Shown here piece by piece: positions 5,250 to 20,147 of a stretch of 20,147 nucleotides of DNA. The DNA lies in assembly GCA_945827765.1 (NCBI GenBank), contig CALZPS010000005.1, forward strand, positions 1-20,147, in the 5' to 3' direction. The position numbers and the translations under genes are program-made. The notes beneath the pieces are model-generated. The model saw only the letters and a list, made by a program, of their open reading frames with translations. It was not told the DNA's origin and did not search any database. The stretch comes from an uncultured Lachnospiraceae bacterium (GTDB lineage Bacteria; Bacillota; Clostridia; Lachnospirales; Lachnospiraceae). Every line of letters begins with the position of its first letter. Within the stretch, counting starts at the first letter, position 1.

Positions 5250-7067
5250 TTATTGCTCCAGATACGCCACATCCTCCGCACTCAACAGCGCATTTGCCGC
5301 CGCGATATTATCCCGCATACGATTCGGATTTGTGGTGCTCACCACCGCAAACACATTCATTTCATTGCTGAAAATGTATCTCATGGCAATCTGGGAAACG
5401 CTCATCTGATCTCTGGCGGCAAGTTCCTCCGCCCTTGCAAGGCGGGTCATATTGACCTCATGTAAATAGCCCTTCTGTCCGGCATTGTCCAGAACTTTTT
5501 TTGCTCCTTCATAATCACCGGAATGAAACTTTCCGCTGAAGAAACCACGTCCGAGACTGGAATATGCAATCACCGGCATCTGTTTTTCTGCATACCATGC
5601 TCTGGCATCTGCGTTTGCCGCTCCGGAAATGGTAACACACTCCCCGCCCCATGGGTCATTCACCTGCTCCGCCAGACCAAAGTTAGGGCTGGAAACACAG
5701 AATCCTTCTAACCCATGTGCGGAAGCGTAGGCATTTGCCTCCTCGATTCGCTGATGTGTCCAGTTGGAGACTCCAAACACCTTTATCTTTCCCTGCTGTT
5801 TCATTTCATTCAAACAATCAATCACTTCGGAGACCGGTGTGTTCGGGTCGTCTCTATGTAATAGATAGATATCAATATAGTCCGTCTGCAGTGTTTTCAG
5901 GCTTATTGCCAATTCTTTTTCTATCACATTGCGGTTGACACAGACCTTTCCGCTCATGCTGACATTCCCGCATTTGGTGAGCAGTACGACTCTGTCCCGG
6001 TTATTTCTGGCTTTGACCCACTCTCCCAGCGCCTTTTCCGCTCTGCCATAGCCTCTGGCGCAATCAAAGGCATTGATTCCCGCCGCATACACCGCATCCA
6101 ACAGTGCCTCGACATTTTTCCCCATCAGCATCGGCCCTATCGCCGTTCCGAAAAAGATTCGGGAAACCGGCAAAGCGATTCCTTCTATCCTGGCGTATGG
6201 CGGTCTTTGCAGGCTGCCGTCCAATACGCTGCAGATAAATGTGGCGTATGGATTTACCCACTGTGCATTATCCGTACCGTGAACACCTTTTTTCATCGAA
6301 TATTCAATTGCCAACGCTCCCGTATATCCATCTTTCTTCAACGCCAGAAGAAGTTCCTTCATCGGAATGATACCGCTGCCTGTTGCCACAGGTACGATTT
6401 TTTGTCCGTCGACACAAGTCTCACCCTCTGCAAAATCTCCCACAACCACATCTTTCAAATGCACACGAATGATGTAATCTTTCAGCATTTCATAAATCGC
6501 CATCTCATCACAGGATGTATCCGCAACCCGAAAATTGCCGGTATCAAAAATCAGTCCCAGCCCGGGCACATGCTCCAACACATACTTACAGTCCTCGGCA
6601 GATGCCAGCGGCTTATACGCATGCGGTGTATTTTCAAATCCAATCTGTATGTCATACTTTTTCGCCAAATCAACAGCCAAAGTAAACTTTTCCACCGCGA
6701 TATCGAGCATTTCCTGTCTGTCAAGCCCAGCACATATTTTTGGCTCTTTAGGGACGGTCTGTCCCGGAACTACCATAAGATACCTGCTTCCAAAACGTTT
6801 TGCCATATCCAGAGCTGCGGTCAGCTGTTGTTCAACTTTGTCCGGTGCCGTATAAAAGGCAGGTGCGGTGATAAGGCATCCGCAGGTGATACCATATTTT
6901 TTCATCGCATCCTGTAGTTTCTTTTCCCCATACAGCTTTACTTCCATCTCCATAATATCCATCATATGGATACTATTCTCAGCCGCAATCTGACATAGTT
7001 TTTCCGCATTGATTTTGCCAAAGGCAATGTCTCGCATCATGGAAAATGTCATAAGTGTCAGTTCCAT
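5250..7067 (-). CDS. Fusion: sugar isomerase/epimerase barrel + aldo/keto reductase
   Basis: A single 605-residue frame joins two cytoplasmic enzymes. Residues 1 to about 282 are a xylose-isomerase-like TIM barrel with the usual metal ligands E145 (GFENTP), D175 (IFDTGN), H203 (VHLKD) and E255 (AIEYS). Residues from about 292 to 605 are an aldo/keto reductase with an intact catalytic tetrad: D335 and Y340 (FDCARGYG), K365 (LLTKCG) and H404 (LLHRDD), plus FGVSNWT and a C-terminal nucleotide-binding region (VVSTTNPNRMRDN). Both halves are of normal length, so nothing is truncated. The ATG at 7067 has GGGGGA six bases upstream. A possible ribosome site (GAAGGA) precedes an in-frame TTG at residue 299, so a separate reductase could also be made. 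It is the last gene of the sugar operon. Substrates are unknown; an epimerised and reduced or oxidised sugar is inferred. Confidence 0.88.
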   Translation of the reverse strand: MELTLMTFSMMRDIAFGKINAEKLCQIAAENSIHMMDIMEMEVKLYGEKKLQDAMKKYGITCGCLITAPAFYTAPDKVEQQLTAALDMAKRFGSRYLMVVPGQTVPKEPKICAGLDRQEMLDIAVEKFTLAVDLAKKYDIQIGFENTPHAYKPLASAEDCKYVLEHVPGLGLIFDTGNFRVADTSCDEMAIYEMLKDYIIRVHLKDVVVGDFAEGETCVDGQKIVPVATGSGIIPMKELLLALKKDGYTGALAIEYSMKKGVHGTDNAQWVNPYATFICSVLDGSLQRPPYARIEGIALPVSRIFFGTAIGPMLMGKNVEALLDAVYAAGINAFDCARGYGRAEKALGEWVKARNNRDRVVLLTKCGNVSMSGKVCVNRNVIEKELAISLKTLQTDYIDIYLLHRDDPNTPVSEVIDCLNEMKQQGKIKVFGVSNWTHQRIEEANAYASAHGLEGFCVSSPNFGLAEQVNDPWGGECVTISGAANADARAWYAEKQMPVIAYSSLGRGFFSGKFHSGDYEGAKKVLDNAGQKGYLHEVNMTRLARAEELAARDQMSVSQIAMRYIFSNEMNVFAVVSTTNPNRMRDNIAAANALLSAEDVAYLEQ

Positions 7068-7166: not shown

Positions 7167-7379
7167 TTACTCTTCAAATGTATATCGTTTTCTCATGGAG
7201 CGATAACGAAACCGCACCATCTCATTCTTCTCCAGCACATCCTCCTCGGAGCCGGTATACTGGCAGCGGATACAATAGAATTCTTCTTTCTCTGCATCAT
7301 AAAACATATCGACATCCAGATCCCGCATAAAGCAGGACGGGCACCTGTAATTTAATCTGCCTTTCGTAGCCTGAGCCAT
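7167..7379 (-). CDS. Small zinc-ribbon protein
   Basis: A 70-residue cytoplasmic protein with two CxxC knuckles, CPSC at 13-16 and CIRC at 36-39, which should hold one Zn ion, followed by an acidic patch (GSEEDVLEKNE) and a basic tail (RFRYRSMRKRY). No membrane segment is present. The start overlaps the end of the 610-residue gene by 28 bases in another frame and has AAGGAGG about 10 bases upstream, supporting a real coupled gene rather than a shadow. I do not recognise a named family. Rubredoxin-like or transcript-handling roles are possible but unsupported. Confidence 0.65.
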   Translation of the reverse strand: MAQATKGRLNYRCPSCFMRDLDVDMFYDAEKEEFYCIRCQYTGSEEDVLEKNEMVRFRYRSMRKRYTFEE

Positions 7380-9184
7380 GTGGTGTACACCTCCTTCTCC
7401 TTCAATGTCCCTGTAAAACCCAATGTGAACATCGGACTAAATGCATATCCTTCTTTGACAAATCCACACTTGTCACGGCCTTGCGCTTCCATAGAAACTC
7501 TCGTATCAACCGGCGGAAGCACACATACTGTTTCGTCAGCATTCTGCATCGAAAGTTCCCGGCATTTGTACTCATAATGAATACTATGCGTTTCTTTTCC
7601 GGCCACAACAGCCAGTGTAAGCGCGGTCATATCCTCCGAATATTCTGTCGTGCCGTAACAGCCCACCATATATTCACAAATAGTAACCTCTGCATCCGGG
7701 TCGGACATCTCCAACACCTTCCTTTCAAACCGGATGTCTCCCGTTCCTTCCGCAAATGTAATCACAGTCTGGATTTTTACGGATACATCTGAAAAAACCA
7801 CTTCCACCGGTTCAAGTGTCAGCACAACCGCTCCATTCTTTTTTTCACACGTGGCCTTTGTGCGGCACAGGCATAAATCAACTTCTTCTTTTCCACAGAT
7901 GATTTTAGCGCTGCGGATCGTTCCTTCTCCCGCATAATGGGTAAAATATCCCGCGCGATATTTTTCCTGAATCAAAAACGGATAGGATGCATCCGTGATA
8001 TGCTGCGTGCCGATACCTACCGGCCAGTTCAGTTTTGCCACATACGGCCGCAAATCCACGATAGCTCCGCCCTGATCCATATTTACGCACACCCGCATAT
8101 AGGGGTCGGTGTACCAGAAAAGCTGCTTGTCACTGCCGTAGAGAATATCTCTCCAAAGTGCCGACTCGGGCGTGCTGTACGTCTTTCTGCTCCTATAATA
8201 GTCCGCGAACTCTGCCATCGTCATATCGACCAGCTTGCCTTCTGCTTTTAGCTTGCCGTAATATCTGCACCCATCATCATAGGACTTTAATAGTAGCTCA
8301 TAAGGTGCCTCCCAACGTCCCATCTTATTCATCCATCCGGGTCCGACAAACATCATATTGTAGGCATCTCCGTCGTTAAACTTTGCCTGATACCGATACT
8401 GGTCAATCAAATTGTACAGATACGGATACTCCCATGTCTGGCTGTCATAGATCATCCCTCTCAGTACATTCTGGGGATGGGTACCAAAGTTTGAGCCATT
8501 TCCATCATAGCATGCAATCAAATCACGGCTCAGATGCGGAATCGCCACAATGCCGCTGTCCTCCTCAGCATTTGCAGCGGGCGCATGCGTATTCGCTTTT
8601 GAAGGAATCCAAGGCGCCCACGGCCCTCCGTCCATAAACGTATACCACGAATTATTGCAGGTGTGATAGGCCTTCGGACCTTCCTCCCAGCAGGTGGCAA
8701 CCGCGCACTTCACGTCCGGATACTTCTCCTTAATATAGTTTATTAGCTCTGCATCCATATAATAAGAGCCTGTAGACTGCGGATAAAAGCCAAAAATATC
8801 ATGGAATTTTTCAAAAACATCCTTCACAATAGCCTTTTTGTCTTCCATCGAAAACATCCAGATACAAAAATCCTTCGTCTTATATTTCTCCCGGAATTCC
8901 TCACAGGGCAGTCCCAGAAGGGAGAGTGCAATCTCATCCCCATACGTTTCGTGATGCTCTTTTGCCAGACTGACCGCCTCCTCGTTAAACAAGGATGCGT
9001 AAGTCATCTGAATCGTCGTTTTCAACCCATATTTGTGGGCACATTCCTGCTGTATCTTGAAAATATCCAGACTTTCGGTCAAAAGTCCGCTGTCCTTCAT
9101 ATTTTCTGCTTTCCCCTGACCGGTCACTTTCTGAGAGTATTCCGGTACCATTTCCGGTCTATGGATAATATTTACAACAAACAT
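7352..9184 (-). CDS. Unrecognised two-part protein, candidate carbohydrate-active enzyme
   Basis: A 610-residue protein with no signal peptide, so likely cytoplasmic. Residues 1 to about 370 look like an alpha/beta barrel reminiscent of the polysaccharide-deacetylase / GH57-GH38-type superfamily: alternating strands and helices, the phrase GFYPQSTGSYYMDAELINY, a Trp-rich substrate-like loop (WYTFMDGGPWAPWIPS) and an aromatic run YNMMFVGPGWMNKMGRWE. Residues from about 380 to 610 are beta-rich, like the sandwich domains that follow such barrels. I cannot name the family or point to catalytic residues with certainty. It sits between the permease genes and the small zinc-ribbon gene of the sugar operon, which suggests it acts on the imported glycan. 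The ATG at 9184 has GAGGAG 11 bases upstream, and the gene starts 30 bases after the permease stop. Confidence 0.7.
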   Translation of the reverse strand: MFVVNIIHRPEMVPEYSQKVTGQGKAENMKDSGLLTESLDIFKIQQECAHKYGLKTTIQMTYASLFNEEAVSLAKEHHETYGDEIALSLLGLPCEEFREKYKTKDFCIWMFSMEDKKAIVKDVFEKFHDIFGFYPQSTGSYYMDAELINYIKEKYPDVKCAVATCWEEGPKAYHTCNNSWYTFMDGGPWAPWIPSKANTHAPAANAEEDSGIVAIPHLSRDLIACYDGNGSNFGTHPQNVLRGMIYDSQTWEYPYLYNLIDQYRYQAKFNDGDAYNMMFVGPGWMNKMGRWEAPYELLLKSYDDGCRYYGKLKAEGKLVDMTMAEFADYYRSRKTYSTPESALWRDILYGSDKQLFWYTDPYMRVCVNMDQGGAIVDLRPYVAKLNWPVGIGTQHITDASYPFLIQEKYRAGYFTHYAGEGTIRSAKIICGKEEVDLCLCRTKATCEKKNGAVVLTLEPVEVVFSDVSVKIQTVITFAEGTGDIRFERKVLEMSDPDAEVTICEYMVGCYGTTEYSEDMTALTLAVVAGKETHSIHYEYKCRELSMQNADETVCVLPPVDTRVSMEAQGRDKCGFVKEGYAFSPMFTLGFTGTLKEKEVYTTWLRLRKAD

Positions 9185-9214: not shown

Positions 9215-10045
9215 TCAGCCTTTTACCGCTCCGGTCATGCCTTCGACAAAGCTTCTCTGCAGCGCGAAAAATACAATTAATGTCGGCAGTGTGGAAATCA
9301 ATACGGCGAGCATCAGCATTCCATAATCAATGTAGTGGCCGGTGGTCATGTTAGAAATCAGCATCGGCAGAGTCTGCGCACGATTATCAGACATAATCAG
9401 ACGCGCCCACATGTAGTTATTCCATGCATTCATAAACGTAATGGTCGCAGCTGCCGCATAAGTTGCCTTCATGGTGGGCACATACATTTTGAAAAAAATA
9501 CCGAGTTCTGTCTCGCCGTCTATCCTCGCCGCCTCGATAATATCTTTCGGGAATGATCTGCTGTTCTGCCGAAACAACATGATGGTAAAGACCGTGGACA
9601 CAGACGGAAGAATAAAACCGAGCGTCGTATTCAACAGTCCCAGTTTTGCATAGGTCTGATAAATCGGGAGCATTGTGGATACAAACGGAATCATCATAGT
9701 AATCATCAACGCTCCGAACAGTCTGTCTTTCCATTTATCATGATATACCTCAAACCCATATCCGGCTACAGAACACACGATAATCGAGGCAATCGTGGTA
9801 ACCGCTGAATATTTAATCGTGTTCCAGCTTGCCCCTAATAGATCATAATGCTCTACAATTGACTTCAGGTTTTCAAGCAGATGTTTTCCCGGCACAAGCA
9901 CGCCCCGAACAATATCCACACTCGCGTTCGTGGAGGCAATCAGCACCCACACAAGCGGAAATACGCAAAACAGACTGCATATGATAAGAATGATATTTTT
10001 TATACCTCTGCCAATCCAGTATTTTGTTTTATTCACGCCTGTCAC
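9215..10045 (-). CDS. Carbohydrate ABC transporter permease, MalG/LacG type
   Basis: A 276-residue inner subunit of a CUT1 sugar importer, with about six membrane spans beginning at residues 16-38. The ATPase-docking EAA loop is clear: EAARIDGETELGIFF at 171-185, with the conserved glycine at 177. The C-terminal end FVEGMTGAVKG is the standard family signature. The start used is a GTG overlapping the upstream permease by 17 bases; a second GTG nine bases later (10036) has AGGTGA five bases upstream and is about equally plausible. There is no ATPase gene in the cluster, so a shared MsmX/UgpC-type ATPase encoded elsewhere is expected, as is usual in Firmicutes. Confidence 0.93.
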   Translation of the reverse strand: MTGVNKTKYWIGRGIKNIILIICSLFCVFPLVWVLIASTNASVDIVRGVLVPGKHLLENLKSIVEHYDLLGASWNTIKYSAVTTIASIIVCSVAGYGFEVYHDKWKDRLFGALMITMMIPFVSTMLPIYQTYAKLGLLNTTLGFILPSVSTVFTIMLFRQNSRSFPKDIIEAARIDGETELGIFFKMYVPTMKATYAAAATITFMNAWNNYMWARLIMSDNRAQTLPMLISNMTTGHYIDYGMLMLAVLISTLPTLIVFFALQRSFVEGMTGAVKG

Positions 10046-10907
10046 CTACTTTCATCTGTATCAATGTGATGGTTCCCACCACCACCAGAATAATCATCGA
10101 GAGCGCGCAGGCATAGCCGAAGTTGGGCACTCCCGCAAACGCTGTATTATAAATATAGTGTGCAATCGGCATCGTCGCATTTCCCGGACCTCCGTTTGTC
10201 AGGTTGACAGATTCATCATATACCTGAATTGCCGCATTGATTGACATCACAAAAGCAAATACCATCGTCGGTTTTAACATCGGCACGGTAATCTTGAAAA
10301 ACTGCTGAAGGGAAGTCGCGCCGTCAATTTTTGCCGCCTCATAAATGCCGGAATCAATCGACTGCAGACCCGCCAAAAAGAATATCATCTGATAACCCAA
10401 CATTTTCCACACACGAACAATCATCAGGATGATTCTGGCGCTGGTCGGATGTCCAAGAAAATTGTAACCGTTTTGGAGTATTCCCAGCCCGACCAGGATA
10501 GAATTCACAAATCCGTCGGCTGCAAAAAGGGAGCGGAAGATGACCGCCGATGCCACCATAGACACTGCTGCTGGTACAAAGATACAAGTTCTGTAAATTC
10601 CTTTAAGTTTCAGTCTCGGGTCATTTAACAGCACTGCCATAATCAATGCCAGTGCAATGATAACCGGCACGGTGACGACCACATACTCCACCGTAATCTT
10701 CAGTGCATCGGCCGCCCGGGAATCCTGCAGGACACGTGTATAATTTGTAATTCCTGCAAATGTCATCTTTCCGGTACGCCCGGTCTGGAAGGACATCAGA
10801 AACGCCCGAAACAACGGCACGAAATTCATCACGACAATAAGAATTACGGCGGGCGTCAAAACCGCCCAGCCTGTCAGATTCTGCCTTTTTTTCATCGAAA
10901 TCTTCAT
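10029..10907 (-). CDS. Carbohydrate ABC transporter permease, MalF/LacF type
   Basis: A 292-residue partner permease of the CUT1 importer. It starts with a basic cap (MKISMKKRQNL), then the first span LTPAVILIVVMNFVPLF and five more spans. The EAA loop EAAKIDGATSLQQFFKITVP occupies 190-209, with glycine 196. The C-terminal region contains NLTNGGPGNATMPIAHYIY, matching the conserved TxGGP segment of this subunit. The ATG at 10907 is favoured because GGGG lies eight bases upstream, 2 bases after the binding-protein stop. An in-frame GTG at 10913 would overlap that stop as GTGA but has poor ribosome-site spacing. It is cotranscribed between the binding protein and the second permease. Confidence 0.93.
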   Translation of the reverse strand: MKISMKKRQNLTGWAVLTPAVILIVVMNFVPLFRAFLMSFQTGRTGKMTFAGITNYTRVLQDSRAADALKITVEYVVVTVPVIIALALIMAVLLNDPRLKLKGIYRTCIFVPAAVSMVASAVIFRSLFAADGFVNSILVGLGILQNGYNFLGHPTSARIILMIVRVWKMLGYQMIFFLAGLQSIDSGIYEAAKIDGATSLQQFFKITVPMLKPTMVFAFVMSINAAIQVYDESVNLTNGGPGNATMPIAHYIYNTAFAGVPNFGYACALSMIILVVVGTITLIQMKVGDRRE

Positions 10908-10909
10908 AA

Positions 10910-12229
10910 TCACTGCCCCATTTCAAAAGCTACCGTTTCTTCCGCTGCCGCCAGTTCCTCATCCAAATCTGCTCCGGAATATGCCACATTTGTCACCGCC
11001 GTCATATGTGCGGTACGAGCCGTTCCCATGTATGCTCCCATTACACAGGACGGGATTTTTGCAGTGAAGTCTACGATGGTGGCATACACTTTCTGTCCGC
11101 CGAAGAATTCTGATTCCTGCTGATAGGTTTCTGATTCTCCCGCCGGAATCCATGTGGAAATCGCGCTGGTCTCCAGAATTTTATCATAAAATTCTTTGCT
11201 GCCCGCAAAAGTTGACTTGAAGAAATCTATTGCCAGCTCCGGGTTGTCACACTCTGTGGTAATTGTCCATGTGGAACCGCCCTGACTTGAATAATTGGTT
11301 GCCCCGTCCACGCCGTCCACCTTCGGCACATTCGTGATGGCCCAGAGTCCGGACTGGTCTGCTGCTGCCTGTATACTGGACATAATCCAACAGCCGTTCA
11401 TCGCACCTGCCACGTTTCCGTTATTCAAATTACCGATGTAAGTATCCCAGCCTGTCTCTTCCTGAAATACGCCTGCCTCAAGCATTTCCAGATACAGTTC
11501 ACTTACTCGCTTAACCTTCTTATTGTCTGACATGTTAAGCTTTCCATCCTCATCGAAATAGCTGCCCCCACAGGAAGTCAGCATAACCGTGATCTGGTTG
11601 TAACCGGACTGTCCGTTCAAGAGGGCTTTTCCTGTCTTCTGTTTGACATCTTTTCCTATCTTGATAAATTCGCTCCATGTGATATCCGTAAGATCCTCAA
11701 TCGTATATCCGGCCTCTTTCAGAATATCCACGCGATATGCGGCAATCGCTGCCCCCGAATCAAACGGGACACCGTAGTTTTTGCCATCCACCACACTCGC
11801 CGCGACCTTTCCTTCGGAGAACTCGGAAAAATCAATGCCTGAATCTGTCAAATCCATGAACACGTCCGGATAGGAAAGTACTTCCTGCGCAATCAGACCA
11901 TCGTCAAAAAGAATGATGTCCGGCAGAACATCAGCAGTATTTCCGGCAGATGTCGAAGTGGACAGTTTCTGTATAATGTCTGCGGATGAGATTTCTACCA
12001 CTTCCATTTCAAAATCCGGATGGTCTTTTTTGTAAATATCTGCCGCCACATTCATAGCATTGATATTGAAAGCCGGATCCCAGCACCATACTGTCAATTT
12101 ATTGACTGTTTCTGCATTCTTATCTTTTCCGTCATTGGTCTTTCCATTGTCTTTGTCTGAACCACATCCTGCCAGTATTCCCATGACCATCACAACCGCC
12201 AGACACAATGCCATTAATCTCTTTCTCAT
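10910..12229 (-). CDS. Sugar ABC transporter substrate-binding lipoprotein
   Basis: A 439-residue extracellular solute-binding protein (SBP family 1). The signal peptide MRKRLMALCLAVVMVMGI leads into the lipobox LAGC, so Cys22 would be lipidated and anchor the protein to the outer face of the membrane. A low-complexity D/K/N linker (about 24-40) precedes the mature fold, which opens with KLTVWCWDPAFN and carries FDSGAAIAAYRVDILKEAGY and a Trp-containing binding region, typical of oligosaccharide binders. The ATG follows the GH53 stop with no gap, and AAGGAGG lies eight bases upstream inside the end of that gene. It supplies substrate to the two downstream permeases. The actual sugar is not readable from sequence; GH53 next door suggests a galactan-derived oligosaccharide. 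Confidence 0.93.
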   Translation of the reverse strand: MRKRLMALCLAVVMVMGILAGCGSDKDNGKTNDGKDKNAETVNKLTVWCWDPAFNINAMNVAADIYKKDHPDFEMEVVEISSADIIQKLSTSTSAGNTADVLPDIILFDDGLIAQEVLSYPDVFMDLTDSGIDFSEFSEGKVAASVVDGKNYGVPFDSGAAIAAYRVDILKEAGYTIEDLTDITWSEFIKIGKDVKQKTGKALLNGQSGYNQITVMLTSCGGSYFDEDGKLNMSDNKKVKRVSELYLEMLEAGVFQEETGWDTYIGNLNNGNVAGAMNGCWIMSSIQAAADQSGLWAITNVPKVDGVDGATNYSSQGGSTWTITTECDNPELAIDFFKSTFAGSKEFYDKILETSAISTWIPAGESETYQQESEFFGGQKVYATIVDFTAKIPSCVMGAYMGTARTAHMTAVTNVAYSGADLDEELAAAEETVAFEMGQ

Positions 12230-13267
12230 TTATTTTTCCTCCTTAAAATCTTTGTAGGCACTTAATACTTTTGTATACTGAAGTTTCTTCTCACCGACCA
12301 CTTTTGCCGTGCCGAGTGGGTAACCATCCGGCATAATCGCTGCATTCGTCTCCGGCTCCCAATAAACCATTCCCTTTAAAGCATGATTATTTACTTTGTT
12401 GACAAGTTCAAGAGTATCGGCAAGTAATGCATACGTCTCGTCCTCTTCATAGTCAAATCCGCCGATTTCACTAAGTACAATTGGTTTTTCGTACAATGCT
12501 GCGATCTGGTTTAATACAACCATAAATTCTTTGGGATTGTGTCTTTCCTTAAACCATGCCGGATAATAAGACAGTCCTATCATGTCGGTCTTTCCGTTAT
12601 ACTTGAAAAACACATCAAAGAAATCTCTTACCCTCTCTAATATGTGTCCCATAGAAACGTGAGCGATTACGCAGGCATCGGGGCAGATTTCTTTAACAGC
12701 ATCATATCCTGCATTCAGCAGTTCCACCATTTCTTCCGGATGTTCCGCTTTGTTTCCTGCCGGATGCATGATACCAGAATTGATTTCATTTCCCACCTGC
12801 ACATATTCCGGAGTAATCCCCGCTGCTTTCAATGCAGACAAAACTTCCTTTGTGTGCTCCGCCACTTTTTTTACCAATTCTTCCTGACTCAGTTCCTTCC
12901 ATGCTTCTGGTATATCCTGATACATCGGGTCCGCGAAATGGTCGCTGTAATGAAAATCTATCATCAGTTTCATATCCAGTTCTTTTGCCCGCCGCGACAT
13001 TTCCACCACACAGTTTTTATCACAGAATCCAAGCATCACCAATCCGCCATGTAGTTGGTATCCTTTGAACTCCTTTCCCGGCTTTACCCAGAATCCATAT
13101 ACCGGAGGCTCCACAAATACTCTGAGACGTACGGTATTGGCTCCCAAATCTTTTGCTGCCTTGATTGGGTCAATTTTTTCTCCGTTTTCATCCATCCACT
13201 CAAACCCAATGGACTCCAACTGGGATACCCAGCCCAGATCAACGCCTAAAATTGTATCATTTTTCAA
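12230..13267 (-). CDS. GH53 endo-beta-1,4-galactanase-like enzyme, cytoplasmic
   Basis: A 345-residue glycoside hydrolase of family 53 (clan GH-A TIM barrel), known for hydrolysing beta-1,4-galactan. Visible family features are the opening GVDLGWVSQLE, RLRVFVEPP at 48-55, MIDFHYSDHFADP at 102-114, the acid/base glutamate E161 in VQVGNEINSG, MIGLSYYPAWF at 229-239, and the nucleophile E267 in IVLSEIGGFD. The start is TTG at 13267 with AAGGAG six bases upstream. Two in-frame TAA codons directly precede it, so there is no signal peptide and the enzyme must be cytoplasmic, unlike the usual secreted galactanases. It is the first gene of the sugar operon, facing the divergent AraC regulator. Confidence 0.9.
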   Translation of the reverse strand: MKNDTILGVDLGWVSQLESIGFEWMDENGEKIDPIKAAKDLGANTVRLRVFVEPPVYGFWVKPGKEFKGYQLHGGLVMLGFCDKNCVVEMSRRAKELDMKLMIDFHYSDHFADPMYQDIPEAWKELSQEELVKKVAEHTKEVLSALKAAGITPEYVQVGNEINSGIMHPAGNKAEHPEEMVELLNAGYDAVKEICPDACVIAHVSMGHILERVRDFFDVFFKYNGKTDMIGLSYYPAWFKERHNPKEFMVVLNQIAALYEKPIVLSEIGGFDYEEDETYALLADTLELVNKVNNHALKGMVYWEPETNAAIMPDGYPLGTAKVVGEKKLQYTKVLSAYKDFKEEK

Positions 13268-13285
13268 TTATTACTCCTTCCCGTC

Positions 13286-13305
13286 TGTCAGTTGCGCACC
13301 TGACA
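13286..13305 (-). promoter_or_regulatory. Inverted repeat upstream of the GH53 start
   Basis: TGTCAG (13286-13291) and CTGACA (13300-13305) form a 6-bp inverted repeat with an 8-base spacer, just upstream of the GH53 ribosome binding site. It is likely transcribed as part of the leader. It might be a second regulator site or a small leader stem; the short arms make this a weak call. Confidence 0.25.
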
Positions 13306-13350
13306 AAGCACATTCAATAGCACTATCTTTCCCCTTTCGGTTCTGACACC

Positions 13351-13379
13351 ATCTTATTTTATCTGCTGCAAAAATACAA
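13351..13379 (-). promoter_or_regulatory. Possible promoter of the sugar operon
   Basis: On the minus strand TTGTAT (13379-13374) and TAAGAT (13356-13351) are separated by 17 bases, ahead of the GH53 gene. Both hexamers are poor matches to consensus, as expected for a promoter that needs an activator. Its -35 abuts the inverted repeat at 13382-13401. Confidence 0.4.
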
Positions 13380-13407
13380 TGACACAGAAAGACTTCTGTG
13401 TTATAAT
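13379..13407 (+). promoter_or_regulatory. Promoter of the AraC-type regulator gene
   Basis: ATGACA (13379-13384, five of six bases to TTGACA) and a consensus TATAAT (13402-13407) have the ideal 17-base spacing, about 105 bases before the regulator ATG. This is the best promoter in the window. Confidence 0.75.
13382..13401. promoter_or_regulatory. Operator-like inverted repeat between divergent promoters
   Basis: The arms ACACAGAA (13382-13389) and TTCTGTGT (13394-13401) are a perfect 8-bp inverted repeat around AGAC. It fills the spacer of the plus-strand promoter and sits next to the -35 of the minus-strand sugar operon. A bound protein could therefore repress the regulator gene while activating the operon. 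Confidence 0.55.
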
Positions 13408-13511
13408 CTGTAACATATATGGGAACACACTTCCATACGACACCGCATAGGCGGCAAGTGGTATGTAATCCAGTACATTTGAACAAAAAAGAATTCTTAT
13501 GGAGGGACAAA

Positions 13512-14594
13512 ATGAATTCAGAATATGCAGATGCATTCCTTTTGGCAAACAGTAACCAAAATTCAATCCATATCGAGCGGAATGAAGAAAATAACAGCAT
13601 TTATCAGATTCGAACCCCCTTTCAAATTACTTTTATCGCCTGCAGCGGAGGTTCGGAACAGGATTATTTAAGCATCACCACACTCTCCGCAAATCAATCC
13701 TGCCACTATCAACTGGCTCTGACTGACCATCATCGGCAATATAACGCCAAAAACCTGCATATTCACGATTATTTTGAATTGCTGGTGGTACTGGAAGGAA
13801 CTGTGCGGCAAATTATTGAAGATAAAGAATACCTCTACACCGCTGGCTCCTGCTGTCTGATTAACCGCAGCCTGTATCATCTTGAAGATTATGCCGGCTC
13901 TGCCAGAATTTTGTTTATCGGTTTTTCGGTGGATTTTATAAAGAATTTATTTTCCACTTGTAACACGGCGGATTTTTCACAGGAAAAAGTAATTTTTAAC
14001 AGTGATTTTTATCGTTTTATTATGAATGACATCAAAAATCCCGGCTCCAAGGCATATCTGGATTTCATTCCTGCCATGGGCAATCAGACCAGTGTGGATA
14101 TGCTGCACAAAGTAAACAGTTCCTTGATGGAAATCATGCTGCATCCTACTTTCGGAGCAACCTTCCAGATCAAAGGATTATTTTCTTCTTTGATTGCCAG
14201 TCTTTCTAATCCAGAATTTTTCCACTGCACCGAAATGCTTCTGGAGCATAACTCGGACGCCTTGATTTTTGCCCGTATCAGCCATCTTATTGAAGAGAGA
14301 AACGGACGCATCAGTCGTGACGAGTTGGCCTGCCAGCTTAATTACAGCGGAGACTATATCAATCGTATCGTAAACAAATTTACCGGACTGTGCTTGTTTG
14401 ATTATTCCATGAACTTTTGCATGAAAAAAGCAGCCTACGAACTAACTCACAGTAAAAAATCTGTCAGTGAGATTTCCGCGGAGCTGCATTTTAGCAACCG
14501 TACTCATTTTTATAAGTTATTCAAAGAGAAATATGGAGTTACTCCGAAAGAATTTCGTGCCCGACAGACTCCGGCTTCCCGCGAAATGCCATAG
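13512..14594 (+). CDS. AraC-family transcriptional regulator
   Basis: A 360-residue cytoplasmic regulator. The N-terminal half holds a cupin-like sugar-sensing domain, recognisable from HIHDYFELLVVLEG at 83-96 and the following strands. The C-terminal ~100 residues carry the two helix-turn-helix units of AraC/XylS proteins: ISRDELACQLNYSGDYINRI and then KSVSEISAELHFSNRTHFYK, ending in the family phrase FKEKYGVTPKEFRA. The ATG at 13512 is chosen because GGAGGG lies five bases upstream; the frame stays open 31 codons further, but those residues lack family similarity and overlap the leader. Divergent placement against the sugar operon makes it the likely local regulator, probably an activator, and autoregulation is suggested by the operator in its own promoter. 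Confidence 0.9.
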   Translation: MNSEYADAFLLANSNQNSIHIERNEENNSIYQIRTPFQITFIACSGGSEQDYLSITTLSANQSCHYQLALTDHHRQYNAKNLHIHDYFELLVVLEGTVRQIIEDKEYLYTAGSCCLINRSLYHLEDYAGSARILFIGFSVDFIKNLFSTCNTADFSQEKVIFNSDFYRFIMNDIKNPGSKAYLDFIPAMGNQTSVDMLHKVNSSLMEIMLHPTFGATFQIKGLFSSLIASLSNPEFFHCTEMLLEHNSDALIFARISHLIEERNGRISRDELACQLNYSGDYINRIVNKFTGLCLFDYSMNFCMKKAAYELTHSKKSVSEISAELHFSNRTHFYKLFKEKYGVTPKEFRARQTPASREMP

Positions 14595-14626: not shown

Positions 14627-17335
14627 TTATTCCCTCCACCGGGCATGGCTGCCGCGGTCGGTCTTCGTGATATAGAGCTGACAGTCTATCTGTTCTTTCA
14701 ATTCATTGACGTGTGAAATAATTCCCACCAGTGCTTTCTCCCCTGCCAGTTCCTGCAGAATGCGAATTGCCCGCTCACGCGCCATGTCATCGAGCGAACC
14801 GAAACCTTCATCCACGAACATCGTCTCCAGACTGATTGCCCCCGCACTGTTCTGCACAATATCTGCCAGTCCCAGTGCCATCGCCAGTGCAGCCAGAAAC
14901 GACTCTCCGCCTGAAAGCGTCTTTACATCGCGCACAGAATCATTGACCAGATGATACACATCCAAGTCCAGCCCTGCCTGCCCCTGACTGCTCAGATTTT
15001 CCATCTCACGGCACTGCAGAATAAACTCGTTATCGGTCATTTTGGCCAGCCTGCGATTGGCAGCCCCGATGATCTGTCTGAAATATTTGCGCTGTACATA
15101 AGTCTCAAAATCCAGCTTGATGCTGCCGGAAAGTTGCCCGTTCGCCGTGCGGCTTAAATTGTTCATCATTTCATATTGTTTCTGCAAATCTGCAGCAGCC
15201 GAGCCATACTCCCGCAAATTTTTCAATGCCGCTTTGTTTTTTTGATACACCAGATGAAGGCGCAGATGTCTCTCCTTCTGTCCTTTTAATTTTGCCGTTT
15301 CCAGTTCCAACTGTGCCTTGCTCTCCTGCAGGTCAACCGATTTCTTCCCTTCCAATTGAGATTGCAGGGATTCGACTCTGGCTGTCTGCCGGAGAACTTT
15401 TTCCTCGTAAATCTGCACCTTTTTTTGTAACTGTTCCCGCACGGAAAGCCATTGTCTGGCAGTCTCATACTCACTCGACTGATCCAAAAACCCCTGTCTT
15501 TCAAGCTCCTGCACAAACAGTTTTTCCGCTTGTTCCTGCTGTTTAATCAGCATTTCCAATCGATTCTGTTGATTTTCCAGCTGCCCGCTTTTGCGTTCTC
15601 TTTCCTCTGCAAACTTGCGCGAGCGCTGTTCCAGTTTTTCCTCTTCGTCACGCAAGGTCTGCAATGTCCGTTCCAGTTCTTTCATCTGACGTTTCACCTG
15701 CTGCCCGTTAATGACTTCCGCACGGTTATTTTCTCCATTGATTTGCTGCAGCAGCTTTTCTTCCGCTTCCAGTTGTCCTTTGAGCGTCTGAAATACTTCC
15801 GCTGCCTGTGCCCGCCGGTTTTCTGCTGTATCCCGGTACTGTTTTGCCTGTTCCACATCCTTCTGATTCGGCGCATCCTTACGCGTCTGTGCTTTCTGTG
15901 GATGATGCACAGAGCCACACACAGGGCATGGCTTTCCTTCCTCCAGTTGCCCCGCCAGAATTCCCGCCTGTTCCTCAAAGAACCGTTGATACCATTCTTC
16001 ATATATCTGCGAGCACTCCCGGCATTTTTTCATCGCTTGTTCCAGTTTTTCCTGTGCTGTCCGGCAGCTTTCTTTTAAAGTCTGTATGCGCTGCAGGTGC
16101 GGCAGAATATCTGCCAGTCTTTGCAGGCGCATCTGCAGGACAGGTTCCTGTTGTTTGCGTTCTTTTGCCTTTTCCTGCCACTGTTCCTGCAGACGTTTTC
16201 CCTGCGGCAGATACATTTTCAGCCACTGTTCTGTCTTTTGAACATCCGTCCTCTGTTGTTCTGATTCATGGCGGATGCGTACCCACTCTTTTTCAAACGG
16301 CAGAACCTTTTCTGCCCGCGCGGCACATGCAAGCTGTCCCTTACAGCTTTCTATCTCACCTTTCTGTCCCTCCAGTTCCTGTTGTTCTTCTACATATTTC
16401 CCGAGCAGGATAAATAATCGATTCACTTCTTCCTGGGCCTGAATGCGCAGATTGAGTGTATCGATTTGTTTCTGCAGACGAGCGCATTGTTTTTCAGATT
16501 CCATTTCCATACTCTTGTCCCGACTTACAATCTGACTCAGCAGTTCACAGGTTTCCTGCATCGGGGGCATCTCCAAGTCACATAAACGCTGCCAGTTTTT
16601 CCGATATTCGTCTGCACCGGATACCGCTGTGTGCTCCGACACCTCCGCCTGATCCGGCATTCCGACTGAATCCGACACCTCCACCTGATCCATCTCCCGT
16701 TTGCAATCCCGGCGGTTTTGTTCCAGTGAAATGTAAAGCTGTTTCGCGCGGTTCGCCAACTCTTCCTGCATCTGCCAGTACAGTTTTGTCTGAAAAATCT
16801 GTGAAAAAATCTTCCGCCGTTCTTTCGATTCCGCATGCAGTAGTTTCAAAAAATCGCCCTGCGCAATCATGGCAATCTGTGTAAATTGATTCACATCCAG
16901 TCCGATTATTTCTTCTATTTTCTTATCAATTTCCCTCTTTTTTCCCTGAAATTCTTTACCATCCGGTAATAACAGGCTCACTTTAGCGGTTTCTTTCACA
17001 AATTTCAGTGTCCCGTCCTTGTTCTTTCGTTTTCCTGCCCGCAGATATTCGGGATTGCGGCGGACGACATAACATTCTCCACGATAAGAAAATTCAAGTT
17101 CCACGAACGTATCAATATCTTCCGCCGCATACTGGCTGCGCATCATATTCCCGTCACGTTTTCCGCCGCTGGTATGGTCATAGAGAGCGTAGGTTATGGC
17201 ATCAAAAATCGTGGTCTTACCGGCTCCGGTGTCTCCCGTGATCAAAAAAAGTCCGCTGTTTATTTTTGTAAAGTCTATCGCTTCGCACCCTGCATAAGAG
17301 CCAAAAGCAGACATTGTAAGTTTACATGGTCTCAT
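14627..17335 (-). CDS. sbcC: Exonuclease SbcCD subunit C (Rad50-like ATPase)
   Basis: A 902-residue SMC-like ATPase that partners SbcD to open and cut DNA hairpins and blocked double-strand ends. The N-terminal part carries Walker A GDTGAGKT at 34-41 and the Q-loop phrase IAMIAQGDFLKLL. Long glutamine/glutamate-rich coiled coils flank a zinc hook, CPVC at 470-473 followed by GSVHHPQ. The C-terminal lobe has the signature LSGGES at 807-812, Walker B MFVDEGFGSLD at about 839-849 and the switch histidine in ISHV. Length is normal for Firmicutes SbcC. The ATG has AAAGGGA six bases upstream, 17 bases after the sbcD stop. One oddity is a 36-base direct repeat in the first coiled coil. Confidence 0.95.
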   Translation of the reverse strand: MRPCKLTMSAFGSYAGCEAIDFTKINSGLFLITGDTGAGKTTIFDAITYALYDHTSGGKRDGNMMRSQYAAEDIDTFVELEFSYRGECYVVRRNPEYLRAGKRKNKDGTLKFVKETAKVSLLLPDGKEFQGKKREIDKKIEEIIGLDVNQFTQIAMIAQGDFLKLLHAESKERRKIFSQIFQTKLYWQMQEELANRAKQLYISLEQNRRDCKREMDQVEVSDSVGMPDQAEVSEHTAVSGADEYRKNWQRLCDLEMPPMQETCELLSQIVSRDKSMEMESEKQCARLQKQIDTLNLRIQAQEEVNRLFILLGKYVEEQQELEGQKGEIESCKGQLACAARAEKVLPFEKEWVRIRHESEQQRTDVQKTEQWLKMYLPQGKRLQEQWQEKAKERKQQEPVLQMRLQRLADILPHLQRIQTLKESCRTAQEKLEQAMKKCRECSQIYEEWYQRFFEEQAGILAGQLEEGKPCPVCGSVHHPQKAQTRKDAPNQKDVEQAKQYRDTAENRRAQAAEVFQTLKGQLEAEEKLLQQINGENNRAEVINGQQVKRQMKELERTLQTLRDEEEKLEQRSRKFAEERERKSGQLENQQNRLEMLIKQQEQAEKLFVQELERQGFLDQSSEYETARQWLSVREQLQKKVQIYEEKVLRQTARVESLQSQLEGKKSVDLQESKAQLELETAKLKGQKERHLRLHLVYQKNKAALKNLREYGSAAADLQKQYEMMNNLSRTANGQLSGSIKLDFETYVQRKYFRQIIGAANRRLAKMTDNEFILQCREMENLSSQGQAGLDLDVYHLVNDSVRDVKTLSGGESFLAALAMALGLADIVQNSAGAISLETMFVDEGFGSLDDMARERAIRILQELAGEKALVGIISHVNELKEQIDCQLYITKTDRGSHARWRE
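16635..16691 (-). repeat. 36-base-period direct repeat inside sbcC
   Basis: Two 21-base copies (16635-16655 and 16671-16691) differ at one position, with starts 36 bases apart. In the protein they give DQVEVSDS and DQAEVSEH 12 residues apart, at about residues 216-235 in the first coiled-coil arm. This looks like a recent in-frame duplication that lengthens a loop or a break in the coil. Confidence 0.7.
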
Positions 17336-17352
17336 GGATTTCCCTTTCTCAT

Positions 17353-18564
17353 TTATCCTTCTGCCGCATTTTGTGCCAGAATATCACACAAAACTGTTCT
17401 TTCCTCTTCCGACAGTTCCCTCCCCTGCACTTCCCGGTAAAATTCACCGAACAAAGTAAGCGGATCCTGCAATTCACCCTCTTGTACAGACTCACATAGT
17501 TTTTGCCGGGTACGGCTATTGTCCATCCGCACTTCCAATATATGGGAGAACACCCGCTCCAACTGTTCTTTCGGTTTATACGGTTCCGACTCATCAGTCA
17601 GTGTGACACTGATATAATTGCCGCATATTTTCTCTGCATCAGCCAGAATTTCTTTCAATTCACCGCGCACCTTGCACACATCACGCAAAGGATGCAGCGG
17701 ATATTTTATAACTTCCGCAGGCTCCCCCTTTGCCTTTAAATTTACCACATGAAGAGTCTTCTCCTGCTCCGATTCGCTGACAGAATATTTCAGCAATGTC
17801 CCGCAGTAGCGCACATACTCCTGTCCGGCGCACTGTGCCCCGTGCAGATGCCCCAGCGCCACATAATCAAACTTCTCGACCACACTGCTGTCAATTCGGT
17901 CGATGCCTCCCACCTGTACATTCTCGGAATCACAGGTGAGCATTTCGCCTCCCGCACCTGCATAAAATTGATGCGACACCAATATATTGCGGCGTGTCCA
18001 GTCAATGTGTTCCCGCTCCAGAAGACGCCGTACCGCCTCCTGATAAGTCTCCGGCAACTGCAGACTGCACTCCGGCTGCTCCTGTCCGCCTTCACGCAAA
18101 TCCTGATCACTTTCCGTCGTTTCGTGAGTGAAAACCTGTCGTACATATCCCGGTTTTAAAAATGGGAGCAGATAGACATCTACTTCCCCATATTCATCAG
18201 AAAGTGTCACCCGGCGCAGATGCTCCTCCGCCGTCTCCGGTACTTTCCCGGCAATAAAAATATGCTGCCGCCCGAGAATCTCTTTCGCATAATCCAAACG
18301 CTGTGCACTGTCGTGGTTTCCGGCGATGAGTAATACCGGCACTGTCAACTCAGACAATGCCGTCAAAAATCCATCAAAGATTTCCACCGCCTCCGCTGAC
18401 GGCACGGACTTGTCATAGATATCCCCGGCAATGACAATCGCATCCGGCGCAAGCTCCCGCGCATACTGCACGACTTCTTGTAAAATATGTTCCTGATCTT
18501 CTTTTAAATTGTAATGATGCAGTTGTTTTCCGATATGCAGATCGGACAAGTGAAAAAATCTCAT
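17353..18564 (-). CDS. sbcD: Exonuclease SbcCD subunit D (Mre11-like nuclease)
   Basis: A 403-residue metallophosphoesterase-type nuclease that forms the SbcCD complex with the neighbouring SbcC. The two-metal site is complete: D8 and H10 in SDLHIGK, D48 in GDIYDK, N83-H84 in AGNHDS, H198 in VSHQFYAGAGG, and H239/H241 in GHLHGAQ. The C-terminal capping region ends VQEGELQDPLTLFGEFYREV, typical of SbcD. Its ATG overlaps the TGA of the upstream ABC-class ATPase (ATGA at 18561-18564), so the two are translationally coupled; sbcC follows 17 bases after its stop. Manganese is the usual cofactor in the family. Confidence 0.95.
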   Translation of the reverse strand: MRFFHLSDLHIGKQLHHYNLKEDQEHILQEVVQYARELAPDAIVIAGDIYDKSVPSAEAVEIFDGFLTALSELTVPVLLIAGNHDSAQRLDYAKEILGRQHIFIAGKVPETAEEHLRRVTLSDEYGEVDVYLLPFLKPGYVRQVFTHETTESDQDLREGGQEQPECSLQLPETYQEAVRRLLEREHIDWTRRNILVSHQFYAGAGGEMLTCDSENVQVGGIDRIDSSVVEKFDYVALGHLHGAQCAGQEYVRYCGTLLKYSVSESEQEKTLHVVNLKAKGEPAEVIKYPLHPLRDVCKVRGELKEILADAEKICGNYISVTLTDESEPYKPKEQLERVFSHILEVRMDNSRTRQKLCESVQEGELQDPLTLFGEFYREVQGRELSEEERTVLCDILAQNAAEG

Positions 18565-20102
18565 AGTTTCAGTCCCCGGTAACGGTTAAAGCAGGCAAAC
18601 ATTTCCTGCCGTCTCGGTGCTGATAGTGCCGCCACACTTGACGTGCTCTCGCACAGTCCCGCCATCCCGTCTTTTTCTATTTTTTCTTCCAGCTTTTGTA
18701 CAATACTTCGTAAATCCATACGTCCTCCGAAGAAATGTTTCTCCGCATAGCGCACACAGTATCCAAGCGCCGTCACCTGCTCGCTGTCCACAATCTGCTC
18801 CACATAACGCAAATCAATGGTTTCACGATTTATCTGTACCGCTTCACGTCCCATTGTCTTCATCTTAATCCGCTCATTGCCCTGATATTCTCTGTTCTGT
18901 CCCGGGCATCTGGTAAACGACGGTTTTTCTGCCGTCTGCTGCAATCCGGAAAGTGCAGGAAAATTTGCCGCCTCCCGCTTTGCCATCTCTGTAATCTCCC
19001 GCGGCTCATAGCGATCCATCTGCACGATATGGTCTGCGATGTGGAAATATGCGCCTGAGCTCCCTGCCACGATCACCGTGGAGATGCCATACTCCTGATA
19101 TAACTCGCGGATGCGGTCAATAAATGGAGTGATTGGCTCCATATCCCGGTGAATGACCCGCTGCATCAGCTCATCGCGTATCATAAAATTGGTCGCGCTG
19201 GTGTCCTCATCTATCAGCAGTACCTTTGCACCTGCCTCCATACTTTCAATGACATTTGCTGCCTGCGAGGTACTTCCGCTGGCATCCTCGGTATAAAATC
19301 CTTTTGTATCTTTTCCATTCGGCAAATCATTGATAAACATGGAAATATCCGTCTTCTTGATACTTCGTCCATCCTCTGCACGGATTTTCATGGCAGTGGC
19401 ATCCGTAATCACATACTCCCGTCCATCACCGGCGATATGGTTATACACACCCAGTTCCAATGCTTTCAGCAACGTTGATTTTCCATGATAACCACCGCCT
19501 ACAATCAGCGTAATTCCTTTGGGAATTCCCATACCGCGCAGGAGTCCTTTATGCGGCAGTTCAAACGATACTTCCATCTCCTTCGGCGATTGAAACGGGA
19601 TTGCCCCCTTCATCGGTCTTGCGGAAACTCCGGACTCACGCGGAAGGACAGAGCCGTTTGCCACAAATGCTGCCAGTCCCATTTTATCCAGCTGTTCCCG
19701 AATATACTGCTGATCCTCCGCCAAATCGCGGATTTTTCCAAGACGCGCCCTATCACAATTTTTATAATACAAAGACCGCTGTACACAATCCGGCAGAAAA
19801 TCAAACAAAATCTTTTCCAATTCTCTGGCATTGATGGTGCGCCCATTCGCAGGGAAACCAATCTCCATACGCAGAATAACAGAGCCGTCCTCCGGATTTA
19901 TCTGACATGCCGTTCTCTCAAGAACTTCCTGTCCACAGCGGCTGACGGAAATCAAGCCACTCTTACCGGAACCTTTCGCCTGAAATGCGTGCTGTCCCGC
20001 TGCCCGTCCAAACTGTCTTGTCAGCTCGTCCTGCAAAGCAATACGCTGATGCGCGCCGCAATATAATTCCTGCGGGAACCCTGCCTGCGCTCCCTTCAGA
20101 TG
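18561..20102 (-). CDS. ABC-class ATPase (PF09818 type), 5' end missing
   Basis: A partial gene; 513 residues remain, and the first roughly 50-60 residues lie beyond the contig. It resembles the ABC_ATPase family (PF09818), of unknown function. Numbered from the first genuine residue (His, 20100-20102), it has Walker A GGGYHGKST at 202-210, a signature-like TEDASGSTSQAAN at 271-283, Walker B VLLIDEDTSATNF at 294-306, and IVAGSSGAYFHIADHIVQMD, typical of the family. The frame continues into adapter sequence, where a GTG at 20117 would add a false MYKRQ N-terminus; that must be removed. No membrane segments are present, so it is a soluble ATPase. It is first in an operon with sbcD and sbcC, which hints at a nucleic-acid role. 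Confidence 0.88.
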   Translation of the reverse strand, partial: HLKGAQAGFPQELYCGAHQRIALQDELTRQFGRAAGQHAFQAKGSGKSGLISVSRCGQEVLERTACQINPEDGSVILRMEIGFPANGRTINARELEKILFDFLPDCVQRSLYYKNCDRARLGKIRDLAEDQQYIREQLDKMGLAAFVANGSVLPRESGVSARPMKGAIPFQSPKEMEVSFELPHKGLLRGMGIPKGITLIVGGGYHGKSTLLKALELGVYNHIAGDGREYVITDATAMKIRAEDGRSIKKTDISMFINDLPNGKDTKGFYTEDASGSTSQAANVIESMEAGAKVLLIDEDTSATNFMIRDELMQRVIHRDMEPITPFIDRIRELYQEYGISTVIVAGSSGAYFHIADHIVQMDRYEPREITEMAKREAANFPALSGLQQTAEKPSFTRCPGQNREYQGNERIKMKTMGREAVQINRETIDLRYVEQIVDSEQVTALGYCVRYAEKHFFGGRMDLRSIVQKLEEKIEKDGMAGLCESTSSVAALSAPRRQEMFACFNRYRGLKL

Positions 20103-20147
20103 CTGTCTCTTATACACATCTCCGAGCCCACGAGACCGTACTAGATC
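20103..20147. other. Illumina Nextera adapter and index (artefact)
   Basis: 20103-20121 is CTGTCTCTTATACACATCT, the Tn5 mosaic end. 20122-20136 is CCGAGCCCACGAGAC, the rest of the Nextera read-2 adapter. 20137-20144 is CGTACTAG, which matches the i7 index N702, and ATC begins the P7 tail. These bases come from library preparation and are not part of the organism. Confidence 0.98.

Follow-up and report, generated by a model that had tools for sequence, protein, structure and literature searches.

A contig end of an uncultured Lachnospiraceae genome that reads as untrimmed Nextera adapter, and the truncated gene that runs into it

The window, by which is meant the whole stretch of 20,147 nucleotides that was analysed, is contig 5 of a 69% complete draft genome of an uncultured Lachnospiraceae bacterium, comprising 1,806,323 bases in 302 contigs. 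Scans of the window with Rfam and for tRNAs gave no matches. A 605-residue protein (5250-7067, minus strand) combines a TIM barrel resembling xylose isomerase (PF01261) with an aldo/keto reductase (PF00248). This fusion was found at full length, with 65% identity, in two same-genus genomes (G002 and G009) among the 24 relatives searched; on contig 50 of G001 and contig 48 of G002 matches to the halves of the fusion adjoin as separate frames. Next to it, and beside genes for sugar uptake, lies a frame of 610 residues (7352-9184, minus strand) for which Pfam gave no match even at E 1, NCBIfam likewise none, and a comparison by sequence with solved structures no relative. Farther along (9215-13267, minus strand, and 13419-14594, plus strand) come a pair of ABC permeases, a solute-binding protein and a galactanase-like enzyme of family GH53, with an AraC-type regulator encoded on the other strand, and judged by its sequence the gene set at 9215-14594 would be an ordinary-looking glycan-use cluster. 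The interval 14627-18564 (minus strand), directly downstream of an ATPase gene that is truncated at the contig end, contains an SbcD gene, which scores above the TIGR00619 cut-off, and a gene resembling SbcC, which stays below the NCBIfam cut-offs shown. The features of that end are collected in Table 1.

Table 1. Features at the right-hand end of the window, with their coordinates and the basis on which each was assigned.
Feature	Position	Strand	Basis
ABC-class ATPase gene, genuine part of 513 residues, first 54 missing	18561..20102	-	Pfam; comparison with P0001
Last nine genomic bases CTTCAGATG, would-be Tn5 target	20094..20102	+	Fits GNTYWRANC at 5/7 informative positions
Tn5 mosaic end, 19 bases, synthetic	20103..20121	+	Exact match; mosaic-end reverse complement in PMC3046479
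Remainder of the read-2 (P7-side) Nextera transposon adapter, CCGAGCCCACGAGAC	20122..20136	+	Sequence; printed in PMC6460022
i7 index CGTACTAG (N702)	20137..20144	+	Sequence; index table in PMC7589761
ATC, with which the P7 flow-cell sequence opens; end of the contig	20145..20147	+	
Adapter-coded false N-terminus DLVRSRGLGDVYKRQ	20103..20147	-	GTG at 20115-20117 usable as start (MYKRQ...)

The last 45 bases of the window resolve, without a mismatch, into adapter parts of 19, 15, 8 and 3 bases. The order at the contig end is ...CTTCAGATG, CTGTCTCTTATACACATCT, CCGAGCCCACGAGAC, CGTACTAG, ATC, so that an exact mosaic end has the read-2 adapter sequence directly behind it, then a catalogued 8-base index and then what we take to be the beginning of P7, which would continue ATCTCGTATGCC... 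Other ends of the same genome do run on, as ATCT, ATCTC and ATCTCGT (the last in locus L004). The mosaic end occurs only once in the window, even when three mismatches are permitted. The window covers contig 5 from base 1 to base 20,147 and when the locus is taken with flanks (L006) no sequence follows the 45 bases that open with the mosaic end, from which it follows that the end of the window is the end of the contig. As regards the published sequences, the reverse complement of the mosaic end is given as CTGTCTCTTATACACATCT in PMC3046479, the trimming parameters in PMC6460022 include CTGTCTCTTATACACATCTCCGAGCCCACGAGAC together with its P5-side counterpart, and the index table in PMC7589761 lists N702 as CGTACTAG and S507 as AAGGAGTA. 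The preliminary description had named these bases an untrimmed Nextera adapter made up of the mosaic end, the read-2 adapter and the 8-base index N702, with no mismatch, and this composition is confirmed by the sequence, while the claim as a whole is borne out both by the exact anatomy and by 244 mosaic ends across the genome. The ATC at 20145-20147 was missing from it. Its verdict on features called there, that they are false, applies to 20103-20147 alone and not to the gene passing through the junction, 513 residues of which are genuine; with this refinement and a second one on the index N702, given below, the adapter interpretation is supported.

The 244 exact mosaic ends of the genome are divided between 127 in forward and 117 in reverse orientation, and the P7-side continuation (a 34-base pattern) was found at 127 places and the P5-side continuation (a 30-base pattern) at 103. 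From the 244, 119 ends were read, in 120 rows of which two are the same end (30 loci with a 1500-base flank, 10 adapter ends among 20 regions and 80 further rows), a sample in which longer contigs are over-represented. All 119 proved to be terminal on their contigs, with tails of 32-53 bases; lengths of 44-47 account for 96 of the 120 rows. The i7 index N702 was exact in 60/61 P7-side tails long enough to contain it, and the i5 index S507, present as the reverse complement TACTCCTT, in 52/53 long-enough P5-side tails, the exception in each case being one substitution. Each side thus shows a single index in the ends read, and the tails were made from one dual-indexed library. Nine contig starts picked because no mosaic end was listed for them contained none in their first 120 bases, and the first base of the window is likewise a contig end without a mosaic end. 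If each mosaic end has a contig end to itself, then 244 of 604 contig ends (~40%) are tailed, and since ~60% of contig ends are without a tail the adapters are not the sole cause of breaks in the assembly.

Comparison with relatives placed the end of homology at base 20102. The truncated gene contains the Pfam domains ABC_N (PF20446), ABC_ATPase (PF09818) and MRB1590_C (PF21117); the scores for ABC_N, the P-loop domain and MRB1590_C were 91.5, 416 and 90.5 bits, all above the Pfam cut-offs, and the ABC_N match begins at profile position 54, as expected of a protein with its N-terminus missing. P0001, a relative of 567 amino acids, matches the whole genuine part (513 residues) at 98% identity and has a further 54 residues ahead of it. 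The agreement between the two proteins starts at the first genuine residue, with none before it, and in place of the missing part stands the adapter-coded DLVRSRGLGDVYKRQ, which the aligner scatters there with gaps. When a query whose bases 1-45 were adapter was compared by nucleotide BLAST, 11 out of 11 same-genus loci aligned from query base 45-64. Three of them started at 46, four one base inside the adapter, and the remaining four were divided equally between 50 and 64. The best match had 75% identity, and an uninterrupted frame of 568-604 amino acids was found in all 11 same-genus genomes. The missing first 54 residues were also sought in the genome itself, which is 69% complete and in which a piece of 54 residues is easily missed, and only the window copy matched well. 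The search with P0001 recovered that copy as query 54-567, extending one residue into the adapter as the end of an alignment can, and two weak matches in the same search (E 0.08 and 0.2) fell in other parts of the protein. The sole loss suffered by the ATPase gene is that of its 5' end at the contig break, and it bears no sign of biological change.

The bases immediately before the mosaic end were also compared across the 119 ends. Positions -1, -2, -4, -5 and -6 deviate from the upstream composition (p 6e-4 to 2e-6), there is no deviation at -3 or from -7 to -12, and -13 has p 0.02. A target preference of Tn5 for AGNTYWRANCT is quoted in PMC3046479, and the base pattern at the junctions is similar to the right half of this sequence. 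Scored against GNTYWRANC, the junctions have a mean of 3.31 of 7 as against 2.54 for the background (p 5e-12). The score of CTTCAGATG, the junction in the window itself, is 5. The fit is imperfect, with A enriched at -2, where the consensus has N, and with T rather than A as the commonest base at -3. The junctions bear a Tn5 target signature, albeit a weak one.

Two points favour the rival view that an IS50/Tn5 end of natural origin, or a transposon from the laboratory, has inserted into the DNA of the organism: the bias of the junctions towards Tn5-like targets, and the derivation of the mosaic end from the ends of IS50 (PMC3046479). However, what stands behind the 19 bases is Nextera adapter and index, not transposon DNA, after which the contig ends, and a natural transposon end was rejected. 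The explanation would further have to accommodate 244 copies with two adapter sides in one genome of 1.8 Mb, the location of every end read at a contig edge and the observation that similarity to none of the 11 same-genus loci reaches more than one base past the junction. Not one of the 119 ends read was backed by transposon DNA and flanked left and right by genomic DNA, and insertion of a transposon, natural or from the laboratory, must be considered extremely improbable. A chance resemblance of real genomic sequence to the adapter, in favour of which nothing was found, was likewise rejected and has a probability close to nil: no match to the mosaic end was obtained in 100 shuffles of the window with three mismatches permitted, the reversed pattern was found neither in the genome itself nor in genomes drawn from the family and the phylum, and the number of copies genome-wide refutes it.

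It is less far-fetched, though still very unlikely, that the contig and the remainder of its bin come from different samples or libraries, by way of mis-binning, index hopping or a chimera. The tail of the window reveals the i7 side only, and N702 is common to many unrelated libraries, but the other P7-side ends of the genome bear the same i7 and its P5-side ends one i5, as a single library would. The explanation preferred here, to which a probability of about 99% is given, is that the terminal 45 bases are synthetic and represent untrimmed Nextera read-through from a library carrying N702 and S507.

Read-through of this kind would have begun with the tagmentation of bacterial DNA by Tn5 transposase just past base 20102 of the window. 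Reads of short fragments would then have passed beyond the fragment end into P7-side adapter and, with the reads left untrimmed, the assembler would have run from genomic DNA into adapter. Adapter k-mers common to all junctions would cause the assembly graph to merge, so that a unique path might stop after about 45 bases. In a de Bruijn graph the path would end once two junctions were also alike over a sufficient length of genomic sequence, and the length of a tail would equal k minus the longest shared genomic suffix. Untrimmed read-through is what we infer to be the source of the tails, with graph merging as the probable rule by which they stop. Most tail lengths are tightly distributed, as the graph-merging model predicts. 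Values of k from 49 to 63 fit the tail lengths equally well, k = 55 giving a plausible number of junctions (about 2.4e5), and as a guess from the model 55 may have been the k of the assembler. The two tails that bear an error have lengths of 53, which no other tail reaches, and 49, a length found in three tails; if it is shared k-mers that end contigs, an error in the adapter would keep the path unique for longer, which would explain the length of these tails. The largest sum of tail and shared suffix among separate error-free ends was 52, which is within 55, although the test is a weak one in which the model forbids only sums greater than k. Five of the 119 tails were short (32, 35, 37, 37 and 37), and at k = 55 these would need 18-23 shared genomic bases. 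This exceeds what random sharing among about 2.4e5 junctions would be expected to provide, and the short tails therefore require related fragments or some other cause.

A consequence of the adapter sequence is that it can supply start codons. When read outwards, each adapter side provides one frame with ATG (...MCIRD), one with GTG (...VYKRQ, the V being read as M) and one with a stop. The frame across the junction of the window has 528 residues if left open at the edge, or 518 residues if started at MYKRQ. In 18 of the 30 loci with a 1500-base flank the longest frame leaves the end and has at least 100 codons, these being mechanical frames rather than proven genes, and the adapter gives the start codon in 11 of the 18 (7 GTG and 4 ATG) and none in the other 7. 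The adapter-coded 6-residue words were found in none of 120 homologues (the best 120 of 7993), a result from which the frequency of chimeras is not inferable. The chances appear evenly balanced that Nextera tails constitute an under-counted class of contamination through which genes cut at a tagmentation site can be called as full-length proteins bearing an N-terminus that is false and recurrent, and not as partial genes at an edge. If this is true, public protein sets may contain a recognisable group of adapter-started chimeras.

The spread of such tails in public genomes was surveyed with a pattern merged from both adapter sides. It was found in 5/397 genomes drawn from the family, including the present one, the others having 197, 69, 27 and 1 copies, and in 5/398 genomes drawn from the phylum, again including the present one, the others having 1-3 copies; other species with tailed genomes number 4/396 and 4/397 in the two draws, which overlap. 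The 197, 69 and 27 Nextera words belong to three genomes of the same family (G163, G177 and G404), in which the listed places at contig starts lie at bases 10-47. A scan of genome contigs for the P7-side adapter with N702 gave at least 110 stretches, in unrelated MAGs and in at least one isolate, Streptomyces griseoluteus NRRL ISP-5360. The occurrence of N702 tails in many unrelated public genomes means that N702 alone identifies no sample. The pair of N702 and S507 is more specific, and among the 80 N702 loci looked at those P5-side tails that show an index, where present, never had S507. In an uncultured Ardenticatenia MAG (CALLZA010..., loci among L064-L125) the mosaic end was found 68-260 bases from the contig end, not about 45, with further sequence behind the adapter.

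Moeller et al. (2024, BMC Genomics; PMC11536531) found adapter words to be significantly enriched (p < 0.01) in 1110 of 15,657 MGnify species assemblies and to be concentrated at contig ends. The words 'Nextera', 'transposase' and 'protein' are absent from the main text of that paper, and the absence of the last means that effects on predicted proteins are not treated in it. Artefacts of this kind, adapter sequence left at the ends of public contigs, are thus known and already published, the Nextera type being uncounted in that census; the literature searched was that under open licence, and no claim is made that Nextera tails in assemblies are unreported. The finding matters as quality control only. 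In the record, bases 20103-20147 should be taken out along with the N-terminus that they encode, and the gene at 18561-20102 should be marked as 5'-partial. A screen with the TruSeq word alone would miss Nextera tails, and the false start codons in the mosaic end and the rough count of Nextera-tailed genomes are practical additions.

Compared with the adapters used in Nextera/Tn5 tagmentation, the mosaic end, the P7-side and P5-side sequences, N702 and S507 are all identical in wording to those printed in the sources cited above, and the tail differs from the full Nextera adapter solely by its truncation after about 45 bases. The broken gene retains all three domains of the ABC-class ATPase/MRB1590 family and differs from its close relatives P0001-P0003, which have 557-567 amino acids, in being 5'-truncated. 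The contamination described in PMC11536531 takes the same form as that found here, with adapter words at contig ends and their reverse complements at contig starts. Copies there amount to as many as hundreds per assembly, in MAGs and isolates, and there are likewise many copies in the present genome. The word counted in that study was the TruSeq word AGATCGGAAGAG, whereas the tail described here is without AGATCGGAAGAG and is of the Nextera type.
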